In this document: positions 1 to 7,535 of the stretch, one piece after another
Position numbering within the stretch: position 1 is the stretch's first letter
Layout of the letters: each line of letters starts with the position of its first letter
NCBI GenBank assembly: GCA_027064425.1
Contig: JAMOPO010000045.1
Location: forward strand, 1 to 8,404
Source: Methanobacteriota archaeon
GTDB taxonomy: Archaea > JAADCQ01 > Methanopyri > Methanopyrales > Methanopyraceae
Length of the DNA: 8,404 nucleotides
Reading direction: 5' to 3'
Notes under the pieces: generated by a model
Databases searched by the model: none
Told to the model about the DNA's origin: nothing
The model's input: only the letters and a program-made list of their open reading frames with translations
Position numbers and translations under genes: made by a program

Positions 1-475
1 CGGATATCCAACCGACGGTACTCAGGCCGGGGCCAGCGGCCGTCCCCCGGCGGCCTACGGGGCTGTCACCCTCTCCGGCGGCCCGTTCCAGGGCACTTCG
101 GCCGTTCCGGGGGAGACGGCCGCGTGAACGGCCCCGGCCTGCAACCCCACATCCACCCGCCCTTTCGGGCGGGTGTTCAGTTTGCCCTCTGCCGTTTTCG
201 GTCGCCCCTACTCACGGCATCGCGTTTGCTTTCTTTTCCTCCGCCTACTAAGATGTTTCAGTTCGGCGGGTTCCCCCTCCGGCGGTACTCCCCCGGGCCC
301 GAAGCGGGCCCGGGGTTTCCCGCCGGAGTGCCGGGGCCTTTCGGCCCCGGCGGGAGGTCCCATTCGGCGATCCCGGGTTCCACGGCTGCATGCGCCTCGC
401 CCGGGCTTATCGCAGCTTGCCACGGCCTTCCTCGGCGCCCGAGCCGAGGCATCCACCCGACGGCTTAGCCGACCC
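1..475 (-). rRNA. 23S ribosomal RNA, 5' part (runs off the left edge)
   Basis: This is the first ~475 nt of large-subunit rRNA, read on the minus strand. Conserved 5'-domain blocks are visible in order: GGTGGATGCCTCGGC (457-443), AAGCTGCGATAAGCC near 418-404, CCGAATGGGACC near 370-357, the segment around GTAGGCGGAGGAAAAGAAAG (about 252-232), then GTGAGTAGGGGCGACCGAAAACGGC near 215-190, and AGTACCG near 24-18. The 5' end is set at about 475 by analogy with archaeal 23S genes, where GGTGGAT lies roughly 18-19 nt from the mature end; the error is probably less than 10 nt. Helices are lengthened by very GC-rich pairs, as expected for a hyperthermophile. Predicted proteins in this stretch are artefacts. 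The gene has a promoter of its own at 604-611, and the nearest upstream gene is tRNA-Val, not 16S rRNA. Confidence 0.95.
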
Positions 476-580
476 GGCGGGGGCCGGTTGGCCCCCGCCC
501 GGGGCCGGCGTGGGGCTTGTGTCGACCCCGGACCCCCGGGGGTGTTTCCCCCGGGGGCTGCCCGGGGTCCCATCCCGCGG
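476..580 (-). other. 23S rRNA leader with two strong GC hairpins
   Basis: This non-coding stretch lies between the predicted 23S transcription start (about 580, placed ~25 nt after the TATA box) and the mature 5' end. The first hairpin has outer arms GACCCCGG (524-531 and 562-569) and inner arms of CCCCCGGGGG (533-542 and 548-557) around a 5-nt loop, with small bulges at 532 and 558-561. The second (473-503) pairs CCCGGCGGGGGCC with a matching arm around a GGTT loop, with one bulged base, and reaches into the rRNA 5' end. Such leaders normally carry rRNA processing structures. The partner 3' trailer is outside the window, so a bulge-helix-bulge processing stem cannot be tested here. Confidence 0.6.
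524..569 (-). repeat. Inverted repeat in 23S leader (18 bp in two stems)
   Basis: The outer 8-bp stem (524-531 with 562-569) and the inner 10-bp stem (533-542 with 548-557) are all G-C except one A-T pair. The inner arms are each self-complementary, so they are both direct and inverted repeats of one another. It lies wholly inside the predicted 23S precursor leader. Confidence 0.8.
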
Positions 581-603: not shown

Positions 604-611
604 TATATAAA
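604..611 (-). promoter_or_regulatory. TATA box of the 23S rRNA gene
   Basis: On the minus strand this reads TTTATATA, an exact match to the archaeal TATA consensus, preceded by an A-rich stretch (CAAAAACTA) that fits a TFB recognition element. It stands out in otherwise very G+C-rich DNA. Transcription would start near 580, giving a leader of about 105 nt before mature 23S. Confidence 0.8.
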
Positions 612-657: not shown

Positions 658-684
658 AAATCGTTTTGGAACTCGAAACGATTT
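658..684. repeat. AT-rich perfect inverted repeat between tRNA-Val and 23S promoter
   Basis: AAATCGTTT (658-666) and AAACGATTT (676-684) are perfect 9-bp inverted arms separated by 9 nt. The repeat starts a few bases after the tRNA 3' end and lies about 47 bp upstream of the 23S TATA box. It could be a tRNA transcript-end structure or a dimeric-protein operator for the rRNA promoter. The sequence alone does not decide. Confidence 0.6.
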
Positions 685-688
685 GGGC

Positions 689-765
689 TGGTGGGCCCGC
701 CGGGATTTGAACCCGGGACCACCGGCTCGTAAGGCCGGCGTTCTGCCGGGCTGAACTGCGGGCCC
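689..765 (-). tRNA. tRNA-Val (anticodon UAC), C8-type gene, CCA encoded
   Basis: A complete cloverleaf folds on the minus strand. The acceptor stem GGGCCCG (765-759) pairs with CGGGCCC (699-693). The D stem is GTTC/GAAC, with loop AGCCCGGCA holding G18G19. The anticodon stem CCGGC/GCCGG encloses loop CTTACGA with anticodon TAC (731-729), reading GUA valine codons. The variable loop is TGGTC and the T arm is CCGGG-TTCAAAT-CCCGG. The discriminator is A (692), followed by a genomically encoded CCA (691-689). A35, C36 and A73 fit valine identity. Position 8, almost always T, is C here (plus-strand G at 758). In Methanopyrus kandleri many tRNA genes carry C8, which the deaminase CDAT8 converts to U8. 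There is no intron. Confidence 0.96.
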
Positions 766-798: not shown

Positions 799-806
799 TT
801 AAAAAC
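799..806 (-). promoter_or_regulatory. TATA box of tRNA-Val
   Basis: GTTTTTAA on the minus strand is centred about 37 bp before the tRNA 5' end, which predicts a start near 777 and a short 5' leader for RNase P to remove. It lies just past the mch stop codon (817-815), so the tRNA can be transcribed independently of mch. Confidence 0.6.
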
Positions 807-814
807 GTTGCGGG

Positions 815-1783
815 CTAGAGGCCGAAGGACTGGCGTAGGATCTCGGTGTTGATGCGGCCGGCGGTGTAGGTGCGGCCGTTCTCGAGGTCGTTGACGACGG
901 CGCGGGCGGGGGCGAAGACGCCGGGGTCGATCTTGTAGAAGTCGCCGCCGGCCTCCTCGAAGATCTCGAGGAAGGGTCGGCCGTAGTCGTCGCTGGCCTC
1001 GGAGGGGAGCTGCTCGACGATCTCCTTGAGCTCGTCGGTCCCGTCCTCGACGTAGTAGTACACGGTCCCGCCGTAGAGGATGGCGTCGTTGGTGCGGCCC
1101 ATGGCCTCCTGGTCGTCCTCGGCGACGGGGGCGATGGGGGCGGTGCCGGTGGCGTGCTGGACGCGGGTGACGTCGTAGTCGAGGACCTCGTGGAGCTTGT
1201 AGAGGCCGGTCTCGACGACGCGGGCGGAGACCTGGACGGAGCCGACGATGGAGGCGGTGGGTGCGACGAGGAGGTAGAGGTTCTCGGGGTCCACGCCGCA
1301 CTCGTCGGCGATGTGGTCGGCGACGTTCTCGTCGGGTAGTTCGGCGGCCTCGAGGCAGAGGACGGCGACGTCGGCGTCGTCCTCGTAGTCGAGGGCCTCG
1401 TAGGTCTCCTTGGGTTTGAGTGCGAGGGCGCGGGCGGGTCCGGAGCCCATGGCGAAGTAGTCGTCGACTTGGATCTGCCAGCCGGCCTTCTGGGCGGCGA
1501 GGGTGGCGATGGCGGGGTGGTCGGTGGTCACCTGGACGGCGGGTAGGGTGAGGTCGTCGTGCTCGAACTCGGTGAGCTCGACCTGGGCGAGGCCGCCGAG
1601 GCAGATCTCGGAGTAGACGAGGCCGGCCTCGAGGCCGCCGGGGGCGTTGACGCCGAAGTCGAGGACGGTGGTGCCGTTGTCGAGCTCGTGGGCCTCGATG
1701 CGGAGCTCGTCGGCGCGGTCGAGGGCGCGCTCGGTGAGCTTGGCGGCGAGCTCGTTGACGCTGGGCTGGGTCACGGTGCTCAC
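815..1783 (-). CDS. mch: Methenyl-tetrahydromethanopterin cyclohydrolase
   Basis: Mch converts methenyl-H4MPT and water reversibly to N5-formyl-H4MPT, a cytoplasmic step in reducing CO2 to methane. The 322-residue reading frame has the normal family length (about 315-325). Family blocks include [20 protein letters not shown] (51-70), [12 protein letters not shown] (80-91), [18 protein letters not shown] (109-126), [20 protein letters not shown] (171-190), [12 protein letters not shown], and [12 protein letters not shown]188 and E191 in SARVVE match the Arg/Glu pair I recall as active-site residues in the Archaeoglobus enzyme. The protein is very acidic, as known for the salt-dependent M. kandleri enzyme. 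The GTG at 1783 overlaps the upstream stop by 4 nt. However, the Shine-Dalgarno-like AGGGGTGA (1787-1780) sits 5 nt before a second GTG at 1774, so translation may begin there (319 residues). Stop is TAG. It probably shares a transcript with the upstream gene. Confidence 0.97.
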
Positions 1784-3355: not shown

Positions 3356-4918
3356 ATGACCGGAGTTACCCCCGCGGACCCGCGGGGCGTGAAGAGATTG
3401 GCACTGGGGGGACCGGGGTACCGCGGCGGTCGCGTCTCCGGCGAGCGGGATCCCGACTTCGAGCGGCTGTCCTGCTCGCTGGATCAGGATCGGGAGATCT
3501 TCCACTGCGACGTCTGGAACTCGCTGGTTCACGTGCTGGCCCTGTGGGAGGCGGGCGCGCTGGACGGGGGTGTCGCGGGGAGCCTGGCGGAGGGGCTGCT
3601 GGAGATACTCCGCGAGGGTCCGGACGGGCTGCCGGAGGAGGCGGAGGACGTGCACGAGGCGATCGAGGTGCGGCTGCGGGACCTGGTGGGTGAGGAGGCG
3701 GGGTGGCTGCAGCTGGGTCGTAGTCGGAACGATCAGGTGGCGACGAGCGTGCGCATCCGGCTGCGGGAGCGGCTGGCGGACGTGGTCCTGGAGCTCCTGC
3801 GGCTGGGCGAGGCGCTGGTGGCGCGGGGTCGTGAGCTGGCGGGCGTGCGGCTCGCGGGTTACACGCACCTGAGGCGGGCCCAGCCGTGCTCGCTGGGCTT
3901 CTGGCTCACGTCGTACGTGCCCGAGGTGGTGCGCGGGGCGCGGGCGCTGCTGCGGGTGCCGGGGTTGGAGGAGTGCCCGCTGGGATGCTCCGCCTTCTCG
4001 GGGTCCACGGTGCGGGTGGATCGGCACCGTGAGGCCACGCTGCTGGGGTTCCGGCGGCCGGCCCGGCACTGCGGGGAGGCGACGGGGCTGCGGGGTCCGC
4101 TGCTGGAGGCGTTGGGGCGGCTGGCGACGGTGGCGTCGGGGTTGACGAGGCTCGCGTCGGACCTCGTGCAGCTGGCGTCGGACGACGTGGGGGTGGTCGA
4201 GCCGCCGGACGAGCTGTCCTCGACGAGCTCGGTGATGCCGCACAAGAAGAACCCGGACGCGTTGGAGCTGGCGCGGGCGGAGCTGTCGGTCGTGTCGGGG
4301 GTGAAGGGGCTGGGGGACGGCGTGCACGGGAAGCTGCCGCTGTTCTACAACCGGGACCTGCAGGTGCTGAACGGGCTGGTCTGGGACGCGTTGGACCGGT
4401 TCGAGCTGTCCGTCCGGGTGCTGAGGAAGGTGGTCGAGGGGATGGAGGTGGACGAGGAGCGGGCGGAGGGGACGCTGAAAGGCTCGCACGCGGTGGCGGT
4501 GGACCTGGCGGAGTTCCTGGCGGACGTCGGGGGCCTGACGTTCCGGGAGGCGCACCGTGTGGTGGGGAGGGTGTCGGCGAGGCTGGATCGGGAGGGCGTC
4601 CCGATGACGCGGGAGCATGCGGGTCGGGTGGCGGAGGAGCTGCGGCGGGAGGGCGTCGACGTGGACGAGGAGGAGCTGCGGGAGGTGCTGGATCCGGGCC
4701 GGGCGGTGAGGCGGCCGGTGGAGGGGTCGACGGACCCGGATCGGCTGGGACCGGCGCTGCGCAGGCTGGAGGGCGAGCTGCGCGGTGTTCGCCGGGCGCT
4801 AGACGACCGCGCGGGGCGCTGGCGGCGGGCGCTGCGGGCGACGGAGGTGGCGCTGGGTCGGCTGGGGGTGGAGGGGTTTGCCGAGGAGTACGAGCGGTAC
4901 TGGCGTCCCGGTGCCTGA
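3356..4918 (+). CDS. argH: Argininosuccinate lyase
   Basis: ArgH splits argininosuccinate into arginine and fumarate, the last step of arginine synthesis; it acts as a cytoplasmic homotetramer of the fumarase/aspartase superfamily. Landmarks are YRGGRVSGERD (22-32), LGRSRNDQVATSVRI (120-134), GYTHLRRAQP (168-177, with the conserved Thr-His), the superfamily signature SSTSSVMPHKKNPD (288-301) carrying the flexible-loop catalytic serine, and YNRDLQ (331-336). At 520 residues it is longer than usual (about 450-490), from a short N-terminal extension and roughly 40-50 extra C-terminal residues. The segment before the signature (about 230-255, RRPARHCGEATGLRGPLLEAL) is diverged from the family's usual Asp-Ala-Val-Ser-x-Arg-Asp motif. 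The ATG at 3356 is chosen by position after the promoter, but GTG 3389 or TTG 3398 remain possible because conserved sequence begins only near residue 21. Stop is TGA. Confidence 0.93.
   Translation: MTGVTPADPRGVKRLALGGPGYRGGRVSGERDPDFERLSCSLDQDREIFHCDVWNSLVHVLALWEAGALDGGVAGSLAEGLLEILREGPDGLPEEAEDVHEAIEVRLRDLVGEEAGWLQLGRSRNDQVATSVRIRLRERLADVVLELLRLGEALVARGRELAGVRLAGYTHLRRAQPCSLGFWLTSYVPEVVRGARALLRVPGLEECPLGCSAFSGSTVRVDRHREATLLGFRRPARHCGEATGLRGPLLEALGRLATVASGLTRLASDLVQLASDDVGVVEPPDELSSTSSVMPHKKNPDALELARAELSVVSGVKGLGDGVHGKLPLFYNRDLQVLNGLVWDALDRFELSVRVLRKVVEGMEVDEERAEGTLKGSHAVAVDLAEFLADVGGLTFREAHRVVGRVSARLDREGVPMTREHAGRVAEELRREGVDVDEEELREVLDPGRAVRRPVEGSTDPDRLGPALRRLEGELRGVRRALDDRAGRWRRALRATEVALGRLGVEGFAEEYERYWRPGA
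3370..3387. repeat. GC inverted repeat at the 5' end of argH
   Basis: CCCCGCGG (3370-3377) and CCGCGGGG (3380-3387) form a perfect 8-bp inverted repeat with a 2-nt spacer. It falls within the first 11 codons if ATG 3356 is the start, but in the 5' untranslated region if GTG 3389 or TTG 3398 is used. Confidence 0.55.
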
Positions 4919-4921
4919 GGC

Positions 4922-4927
4922 GGAGGT
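4922..4927 (+). promoter_or_regulatory. Ribosome binding site deciding the start of the PP-loop gene
   Basis: GGAGGT lies just after the argH stop and 4 nt before GTG 4932, a good match to the archaeal 16S tail. It favours that start over the in-frame GTG 4911 and TTG 4878, neither of which has such a well-placed site. Confidence 0.65.
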
Positions 4928-4931
4928 CCGG

Positions 4932-6461
4932 GTGTGCCTGGAGTGCGAGCTCGTGACGCCGCTGGAGCGGTGCCCGGAGTGCGGCGGGGAGGCGCGTCCG
5001 GCCGGCGCGACGCCGCCGGCCGAGGTGCGGCCGGTTGGGGAGGAGTACCTCCGGTTCCTGCGGGAGGTGCTCGAGTCGGAGGGGCTGCCGCGGGGGCTGC
5101 TGTCCCGGCGGGAGCTGCTGCTGGTGAACCGGGCGCCGGAGCTGGACCTGATGGACGAGGTGATCGGGCCGGAGCCGATCGTGTCGGTGAGGTACGACCT
5201 CCGGGAGGGCGAGTGGACGGTCGTGTTGAAGGAGGAGGGGGCGCGGCGGCTGTACGAGCTGGGCGGCGCGTGCGTGGAGGTGGATCGGGGCGCGGCGGAG
5301 GCGGTGCGGGATGGGAAGAACCTGTTCGCGCCGGGCGTGGTGGCGGCGGATGACGTGGAGCCGGGCGACTGGGTGGTCATCGAGCACGGCGGGAGGCCGG
5401 TCGCGTTCGGGCGCGCGGTGATGTCGGGGGAGGAGATGGTCCGGCGGTCGCGGGGCATGGCCGTGCAGACGCGGGGGAGCGTGGAGGGTGAGCCGCGGCG
5501 GCTGAGCCGGGACTTCCGGCAGGTGGCGGAGGCGCACGAGGAGTACCTGGAGGAGCGGCTGGAGCGGAGCGTCGAGATCGCGCGGGAGCACGTGGACGGG
5601 CCGGCGTTCGTCTCCTTCTCTGGGGGCAAGGACAGCCTGGTCACGGCGGTGGTGGCGGCGGAGGCGGGCGTGGAGCGGGCGGTGTTCGTGGACACGGGGA
5701 TGGAGCTGCCGGAGACGCTGGAGGCGGTGAGGCGGGCGTCCAGCCTGGTCGACGTGGAGGAGCTGGAGTGCGGTGAGGACGTGTTCTATCGGGTCTCGGA
5801 GGCGCTGCTACCGCCCTCGAAGGACAACCGATGGTGCACGCTGGTGGGCAAGCTGGCCCCGCTGATGCGGTACGCGCGATCGGAGTTCGGGCGGCGGTTC
5901 TACACGCTGGTGGGAGTGCGGCGGTACGAGTCCGGGACGCGGGCGGAGCGGGGCCGGGTCTGGGAGAGTGACGCGGTCCCGGGCCAGGTGAACGTGGCCC
6001 CGATCTTCGACTGGTCGTCGCTGGACGTGTGGCTGTTCCTGCACGCGTGGGACCTGCCCTACAACGAGCTTTACGAGCACGGGTTCGACCGGATCGGGTG
6101 CTACATGTGCCCGGCGAGCAAGGTGGGCGACTTCGAGCTGGTGCGGCGCGTGCACGGGCGGCTGTGGCGGAGGTGGGAGGAGCTCCTGGAGTCGTACCGG
6201 CGGCGGCACGGCCTGCCGGAGGACTGGTTGAGGTACCACGTGTGGCGGTGGCTGCGACCGGAGGGTGAGATCCGTCGGGTGGCGAGCGAGGAGGCGCTGC
6301 GGTGGGGCGAGCGGGTCATGTCCCGGTGGCTGGATCGGAGGCCGCGGGAGGCGGCGCGGGAGTTCAAGTCGGAGGGCTGTCCGGGGTGCCCGTACTGCTC
6401 GGCCGCGGGCTCCGGGGAGTGCGTGGTGCTGAGGGAGACCCTGCGGAAGCTGGAGGGGTGA
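4932..6461 (+). CDS. PP-loop (PAPS-reductase family) protein with Zn ribbon and PUA domain
   Basis: This 509-residue multidomain protein resembles the archaeal group annotated as phosphoadenosine phosphosulfate reductase (COG0175). Counting from GTG 4932, a zinc-ribbon pair opens the protein (C2, C5, C14, C17). A PUA-like domain, an RNA-binding fold, covers about 112-182 (GKNLFAPGV, GDWVVIEHGGRPVAFGRA). The ATP-pyrophosphatase PP-loop is FVSFSGGKDS (226-235), followed by FVDTGMELPET (252-262), WCT with C302, and GVRRYES. C-terminal cysteines C390 and C393 (GCYMCPASK) plus C483, C486, C489 and C497 (CPGCPYC...C) could bind an Fe-S cluster or zinc. True assimilatory PAPS reductases lack Zn-ribbon and PUA domains, so an RNA-directed role such as tRNA thiolation is a reasonable inference, unproven. 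It follows argH by 13 nt and is probably co-transcribed; in-frame upstream starts (GTG 4911, TTG 4878) would overlap argH. Confidence 0.88.
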   Translation: MCLECELVTPLERCPECGGEARPAGATPPAEVRPVGEEYLRFLREVLESEGLPRGLLSRRELLLVNRAPELDLMDEVIGPEPIVSVRYDLREGEWTVVLKEEGARRLYELGGACVEVDRGAAEAVRDGKNLFAPGVVAADDVEPGDWVVIEHGGRPVAFGRAVMSGEEMVRRSRGMAVQTRGSVEGEPRRLSRDFRQVAEAHEEYLEERLERSVEIAREHVDGPAFVSFSGGKDSLVTAVVAAEAGVERAVFVDTGMELPETLEAVRRASSLVDVEELECGEDVFYRVSEALLPPSKDNRWCTLVGKLAPLMRYARSEFGRRFYTLVGVRRYESGTRAERGRVWESDAVPGQVNVAPIFDWSSLDVWLFLHAWDLPYNELYEHGFDRIGCYMCPASKVGDFELVRRVHGRLWRRWEELLESYRRRHGLPEDWLRYHVWRWLRPEGEIRRVASEEALRWGERVMSRWLDRRPREAAREFKSEGCPGCPYCSAAGSGECVVLRETLRKLEG

Positions 6462-6542: not shown

Positions 6543-7535
6543 ATGGGCGTGCGGGAGGAGGCGCTTCGGGTCATCCGGCGGAGGATCGAGCGGGGTCAGC
6601 CGCTGTACGACTTTACCGGCCTGGCCTCGAGGGCGCGGGTTGAGGCGGCGCCGGACGAGGTGCGGACGTACCTGTCCGAGGCGCTGATTCTCCCGGAGGT
6701 TAAGGAGGCGTGCCGGGAGCACTTCGAGGCGCCGGAGTGCGACGTGGTCGTGGGCTCTCGGACGACGGGGCTCGTGATCGCGGCGGTGCTGGCGCTGGAG
6801 CCGGAGCGGGTGCTGCACGTGCTGCCGGAGGGTGGCGAGGCGCACCCGTGCGTGGAGCGCGGGTGCGAGCTGGTCGGGGCGGAGTACGTGGAGGTGGAGG
6901 GGCTGGAGGAGGATCCGGAAGAGTTCGACCTGGTCGTGGTGACGGGGTGTGACGTGAGCTGGCGGGTGATCGACGAGGAGGTGCTGGAGCGGGTGGGCGG
7001 GGCCGAGGTCCCGTCCCTGCTGGACGACGCTTCGGGTGATCGGGTCCGGCGGCTGCACGGGCAGCGGCCGGGGCCGGCGTACGGGTTCGACCTGGTGGTC
7101 ACGAGCTGTGACAAGCTGATGGAGGGGCCGCGGTGCGGGGTGCTGGTGGGCGAGCCGGAGCTGGTGGATCGGGTGCGGCGGGTCTGCGAGGAGCTAGGGT
7201 GGACGGTGGATGGCCCGACGCTGGCTGCGGTGCGGGCGGCGTTCGAGCGGTTCGATCTGGAGCGGCTGCGGGAGCGGTTGGACGGGATTGACGTGGTGGT
7301 GGAGGGCCTCTCGGGGGTCGTGGAGGTGGAGCGGACGGGTGCGGGCGTGGTGTTGGAGGTGGAGGACCCCGTGGAGGTGGGGATGGAGCTGCTCCGGGAG
7401 CACGGGATTATGACGATCCCGGTACTGGGCTACCCGGGCGTGAGCCGGGAGCTGAGGCTGAACCTGCTGACGGAGGACGCGGAGCGGTTCGGTTACGGGC
7501 GGTTGGTGGAGGTGCTCCGGGGGGTGCTGGGTTGA
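6543..7535 (+). CDS. SelA-like pyridoxal-phosphate protein, UPF0425/MJ0158 family
   Basis: This 330-residue fold-type I PLP enzyme belongs to the archaeal SelA-like group exemplified by MJ0158. Visible marks are an N-terminal helix (EEALRVIRRRIERGQPLYDFTGL), a cofactor-phosphate-binding-like turn VVVGSRTTGLVIAAVLAL (68-85), the PLP-ring aspartate region PSLLDDASGDRVR (157-169, D161/D162), and the Schiff-base lysine in VTSCDKLMEGPRCG (K191). The small C-terminal domain ends with IPVLGYPGVSRELRLNLL. Bacterial SelA makes selenocysteinyl-tRNA, but archaea use PSTK and SepSecS; as I recall, the M. jannaschii homologue did not show SelA activity, so the real substrate is unknown. The ATG at 6543 has no strong Shine-Dalgarno; a weak TATA-like box at 6502-6510 would give a short leader. 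The end overlaps the next gene by 4 nt (TTGA). Confidence 0.88.
   Translation: MGVREEALRVIRRRIERGQPLYDFTGLASRARVEAAPDEVRTYLSEALILPEVKEACREHFEAPECDVVVGSRTTGLVIAAVLALEPERVLHVLPEGGEAHPCVERGCELVGAEYVEVEGLEEDPEEFDLVVVTGCDVSWRVIDEEVLERVGGAEVPSLLDDASGDRVRRLHGQRPGPAYGFDLVVTSCDKLMEGPRCGVLVGEPELVDRVRRVCEELGWTVDGPTLAAVRAAFERFDLERLRERLDGIDVVVEGLSGVVEVERTGAGVVLEVEDPVEVGMELLREHGIMTIPVLGYPGVSRELRLNLLTEDAERFGYGRLVEVLRGVLG
7521..7526 (+). promoter_or_regulatory. Ribosome binding site of the small membrane protein
   Basis: GGGGTG inside the end of the PLP gene is 5 nt from TTG 7532. This supports that TTG, and therefore the overlapping TTGA stop/start arrangement, over the in-frame ATG at 7544. Confidence 0.55.

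Follow-up and report, generated by a model that had tools for sequence, protein, structure and literature searches.

The window, a contig of 8,404 bp from an archaeal genome of 1.54 Mb that is 99% complete (G000), carries a tRNA-Val(UAC) gene in which position 8 is C in place of T. We consider it highly probable that this gene is functional and that its transcript is trimmed, edited from C8 to U8 by the CDAT8 orthologue that G000 encodes, and perhaps thiolated thereafter. Whole-genome placement lists G000, a heat-loving archaeon, in the same genus as Methanopyrus kandleri AV19 (G001). Judged from sequence, with a CDAT8 that is 73% identical to that of AV19, the genome represents a species different from M. 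kandleri. C8 editing is already published for M. kandleri; what the window adds is a further species with this known system, not a new system. Across the five Methanopyrus genomes examined, the combination of C8 tRNA genes and CDAT8 is a fixed genus trait, and not a peculiarity of one strain.

The tRNA-Val(UAC) gene and its surroundings

The only tRNA detected in the window by ARAGORN is tRNA-Val(tac) (689–765, minus strand), which was matched by Rfam RF00005 over 692–765 of the same strand with a score of 65.4 bits. The gene strand reads GGGCCCG-C8-A9-GTTC-A14-G15-CCCGGCA-GAAC-G-CCGGC-CTTACGA-GCCGG-TGGTC48-CCGGG-TTCAAAT-CCCGG-CGGGCCC-A-CCA. All seven pairs of the acceptor stem form and the T arm is intact in the Rfam alignment. 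A14 is the canonical partner of U8 within the tRNA core. The initial annotation had located the gene and had read C8 from the plus-strand G at 758, with A14 and the G15/C48 pair normal and the cloverleaf otherwise intact; its coordinates and bases proved exact by sequence, ARAGORN and Rfam, and the alignment confirmed its description of the remainder of the tRNA as normal. The gene is identical in G000, AV19 and two further genomes (G002 and G003), and the tRNA census of G000 contains no other tRNA-Val(UAC). The features of the region are summarized in Table 1.

Table 1. Features of the tRNA-Val(UAC) region and related palindrome copies.
Feature	Position	Strand	Basis
tRNA-Val(UAC) gene, CCA encoded at 689-691	689..765	minus	ARAGORN, Rfam RF00005, sequence
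tRNA-Val(UAC) anticodon TAC	729-731	minus	
tRNA-Val(UAC) position 8, C replaces T; CDAT8 predicted to deaminate C to U here	758	minus	sequence; identical gene in G001, G002, G003
tRNA-Val(UAC) A14	752	minus	sequence and alignment
TTTTTAA, TATA-like, 34-40 nt before the tRNA 5' end; probable promoter (inferred)	799..805	minus	sequence
TATA-like TTTATATA in the tRNA-Val to 23S interval; possible promoter for 23S alone (inferred)	604..611	minus	sequence
Imperfect palindrome AAATCGTTTCGAGTTCCAAAACGATTT, 4 nt past CCA; copy of genus-wide CGTTA(N)9TAACG	658..684	minus	sequence; AV19 report PMC5217627
23S rRNA, 5' part, cut by contig end; begins 208 nt downstream of tRNA-Val	1..480	minus	Rfam RF02540, 266.9 bits
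Methenyltetrahydromethanopterin cyclohydrolase (mch), upstream neighbour of tRNA-Val	815..1783	minus	PF02289, E 9e-142; TIGR03120, 474 bits
Further copies of the palindrome	L155:438, L158:475, L161:520, L166:460		

Minimum free energy folding favoured the cloverleaf with neither C8 nor U8 (gaps of 9.5 versus 7.9 kcal/mol, respectively, at 37 °C, and 10.9 versus 10.1 kcal/mol at 85 °C), and base 8 pairs with G66 in the folds of both. For this G+C-rich tRNA without modifications, nearest-neighbour folding is thus uninformative.

The tRNA-Val(UAC) gene lies just upstream of the 23S rRNA gene in three genomes, namely G000 (480–765 of the window), AV19 and G002. The 16S gene of AV19 is about 68 kb away from this pair; thus, 16S and 23S are unlinked in AV19 and do not form one operon. 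AT-rich elements similar to TTTTTAA also precede other tRNA genes of G000. A sigma-70 and terminator scan was set aside as inapplicable to archaea. Elsewhere in the window, a gene for a PUA-domain, PAPS-reductase-like protein (4911–6461, plus strand; NF010367, 649 bits) adjoins one for an MJ0158-type PLP enzyme (6543–7535, plus strand; TIGR03576, 383 bits).

Position 8 of tRNA genes in Methanopyrus

Position 8 was surveyed in the standard tRNA genes of G000 and of four other genomes of its family, all of one genus; tRNA-Sec was left out since its core differs. The raw automatic tally, before inspection, gave C8 in 26 of 30 genes in G000 and 26 of 31 in AV19, and was then corrected for the 5' end of initiator tRNA-Met, for a tRNA-Asp matched only in part by Rfam, and for missed tRNA-Glu (two genes) and tRNA-Trp genes. 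Rfam misplaces the 5' end of initiator tRNA-Met (G000:C27:200325-200395 and homologues), which then reads as T8; with the true start, AGCGGGG-C8-GGGG, it is a C8 gene.

After correction, C8 is present in 31 of the 34 standard tRNA genes of G000, the three T8 genes being tRNA-Gln and two tRNA-Pro. The corresponding numbers of C8 and T8 genes are 30 and 4 in AV19, 31 and 3 in G002, and 24 and 3 in each of the incomplete drafts G003 and G004. The AV19 result agrees with the 30 of 34 tRNAs reported as C8 for M. kandleri (PMC3695527), which validates the census. The tRNA genes sampled as controls in four other archaeal genomes, 30 in all, invariably have T8.

The genes for tRNA-Gln and both tRNA-Pro are T8 wherever they were found among the five genomes. 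In contrast, tRNA-Thr(GGU) is T8 only in AV19 (G001:C1:1020437-1020511) and C8 in G000, G002 and G004; therefore, the organism of the window would need editing in one tRNA more than M. kandleri. The census of the incomplete drafts did not find tRNA-Gln in G004 or tRNA-Thr(GGU) in G003, and one tRNA-Pro of G004 was seen twice, at contig ends. The extra C8 gene is a new detail of the window's species and indicates that the set of C8 genes still drifts within the genus, the balance of C8 and T8 providing a natural experiment on how dependence on editing is maintained.

The CDAT8 orthologue

A search of G000 for THUMP domains identified six loci, one of which encodes a CDAT8 orthologue of 296 residues that combines a deaminase motif with a THUMP domain at the C-terminus (G000:C3:38729-39616, minus strand). 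The protein matches M. kandleri CDAT8 (PDB code 3G8Q) over the whole chain, with residues 18–295 aligned to residues 2–278 (E 3.7e-134, 450 bits), and its THUMP domain is recognized by Pfam (PF02926, residues 216–293) with 28.4 bits against a cut-off of 20.6. Sequence identity to the orthologues of the four other Methanopyrus genomes ranges from 66 to 83%, with the highest value for G004. Among the five orthologues there is no variation in the deaminase residues H61-A62-E63 and P83-C84-x-x-C87. The protein resembles M. kandleri CDAT8 in the order of its domains, with the deaminase preceding the THUMP domain, in its HAE and PCxxC motifs and in its overlapping downstream ORF, but with the upstream TTG as start codon its N-terminus would be extended by a few residues. 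The downstream ORF overlaps the end of the CDAT8 gene in all five genomes, which suggests an old, conserved operon; in G000, this ORF reads by inspection as the rRNA dimethyltransferase KsgA (ksgA).

A profile built from the five sequences and searched against 297 genomes found full-length CDAT8 in all five Methanopyrus genomes and in none of the 292 other archaeal genomes. Weak matches over the C-terminal (THUMP) half were obtained in five non-Methanopyrus genomes, in none of which the deaminase part was matched. CDAT8 and C8 tRNA genes co-occur in all five Methanopyrus genomes. A viral origin of CDAT8 was also considered; searches with a single query sequence, which reach close relatives only, found no relative in IMG/VR and only a Methanopyrus-type MAG among genome contigs.

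Proposed editing of tRNA-Val(UAC)

For M. kandleri, an RNA-Seq study has reported editing of C8 to U8 in the tRNAs taken as a class (PMC3695527). The 3' and 5' ends are described as being processed before CDAT8 converts C8 to U8, with introns removed last, and the THUMP domain of CDAT8 presumably holds the CCA end (PMC3695527; PMC9957541). The window is consistent throughout with this scheme. CDAT8 is also active on micro-helix RNA, and it is the enzyme assigned in the literature to the position-8 site (PMC9957541).

By analogy with M. kandleri, the tRNA-Val(UAC) gene of this Methanopyrus species would be functional and give rise to a transcript carrying C8, the ends of which would be trimmed before editing. 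The CDAT8 orthologue would then bind the tRNA through its THUMP domain and deaminate C8 to U8, restoring the U8-A14 tertiary pair. Since a ThiI homologue is encoded in G000, the restored U8 could subsequently be thiolated; this is the weakest step of the scheme because the homologue scores 239.9 bits, just below the NCBI equivalog cut-off of 264.5 bits. The tRNA-Val has the features expected of a CDAT8 substrate, with C8, A14 and both the acceptor stem and the T arm, the portion that CDAT8 recognizes, all present and CDAT8 encoded in the same genome, and no evidence against the proposed explanation was found. The initial annotation had regarded the gene as a likely editing substrate, since M. 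kandleri encodes C8 in many tRNAs and repairs it with CDAT8, and had suggested a search of the genome for a CDAT8 homologue and for other C8 genes. The orthologue and 30 other C8 genes are indeed present, and both support this reading, in which editing of the transcript itself is drawn from M. kandleri. The further suggestion that C8 marks the taxonomic origin of the window was also right, given the placement of the genome in the genus of AV19.

The genome sequence alone would also be compatible with a tRNA-Val that works with unedited C8, its core tolerating the cytidine while CDAT8 edits other tRNAs only. This is very unlikely, as AV19 has an identical gene, and CDAT8 of M. kandleri edits tRNAs as a class after their ends are trimmed. 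Moreover, A14 is retained, as expected if U8 is restored, and the acceptor part corresponding to the micro-helix on which CDAT8 acts is intact in tRNA-Val. Restoration of U8 by an enzyme other than CDAT8 might be considered in view of the further THUMP proteins encoded in G000; however, inspection of their ORFs found the deaminase motif in none of the five, one of which is ThiI by Pfam, and the literature names CDAT8 for this position, which makes another enzyme extremely improbable.

A sequencing or assembly error, or a tRNA-Val pseudogene, could be suspected from the shortness of the contig and its end within the 23S rRNA gene. The probability of either is negligible: the prevalence of C8 among the other tRNA genes of G000 and its recurrence in this gene in three further genomes argue that C8 is not a sequencing slip, and these replicate genomes refute the error or pseudogene reading. 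In addition, what is the sole tRNA-Val(UAC) of a nearly complete genome retains its cloverleaf, CCA and anticodon intact. Editing of a functional tRNA-Val by CDAT8 is the explanation that we retain.

A palindrome downstream of stable RNA genes

Downstream of AV19 tRNA genes, a previous study reported the motif CGTTA(N)9TAACG and speculated that it signals 3' maturation in connection with C8 editing (PMC5217627). The element of the window occupies the same site, just after the tRNA, but has GTTT...AAAC in place of GTTA...TAAC, a symmetric change. Across the five genomes, a strict expression found the palindrome core in 154 of 157 tRNA 3' flanks; two of the three missed flanks show the palindrome on visual inspection, and a contig end truncates the third. 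GTT and AAC are in exactly the same register in 148 of 153 cases. The palindrome also follows T8 tRNAs, tRNA-Sec, SRP RNA, 16S and 23S, and is thus more widespread than published, where it was described for AV19 tRNAs only.

Paired positions of the palindrome form Watson-Crick pairs no more often than base frequencies predict (for positions 9 and 17, 71 observed and 66 expected), so there is no RNA hairpin conserved by compensatory change. This lack of covariation, together with the occurrence after T8 tRNAs and after tRNA-Sec, SRP RNA, 16S and 23S, makes a link to C8 editing unlikely, which bears directly on the published speculation. On the sequence evidence, a 3' boundary or termination role at the DNA level would fit better. 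The palindrome may, tentatively, be a DNA-level 3'-boundary element of Methanopyrus stable RNA genes at large, rather than a signal for tRNA maturation or editing; it could, for example, be bound by a dimeric protein that halts or insulates transcription, a suggestion we put forward with the same reserve. In each of two genomes tested, the strict pattern is present at about 50 sites, and a reversed control gave no match. Among copies outside tRNAs, 21 of 23 lie near an ORF end, compared with 62% of random positions, a weak test given how common long open frames are in DNA so rich in G+C.

Introns and other tRNA features

The intron content of tRNA genes also differs from that of AV19. The tRNA-Val(GAC) gene contains an intron in G000 and none in AV19, while the tRNA-Asn and tRNA-Cys genes contain introns in AV19 and none in G000, such that these three introns vary in presence from one Methanopyrus species to another. 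Two tRNA-Glu genes, each having the anticodon UUC, contain an intron in the anticodon loop as well as the unusual D-loop insert known from AV19; three genomes (G000, AV19 and G002) have retained both copies.
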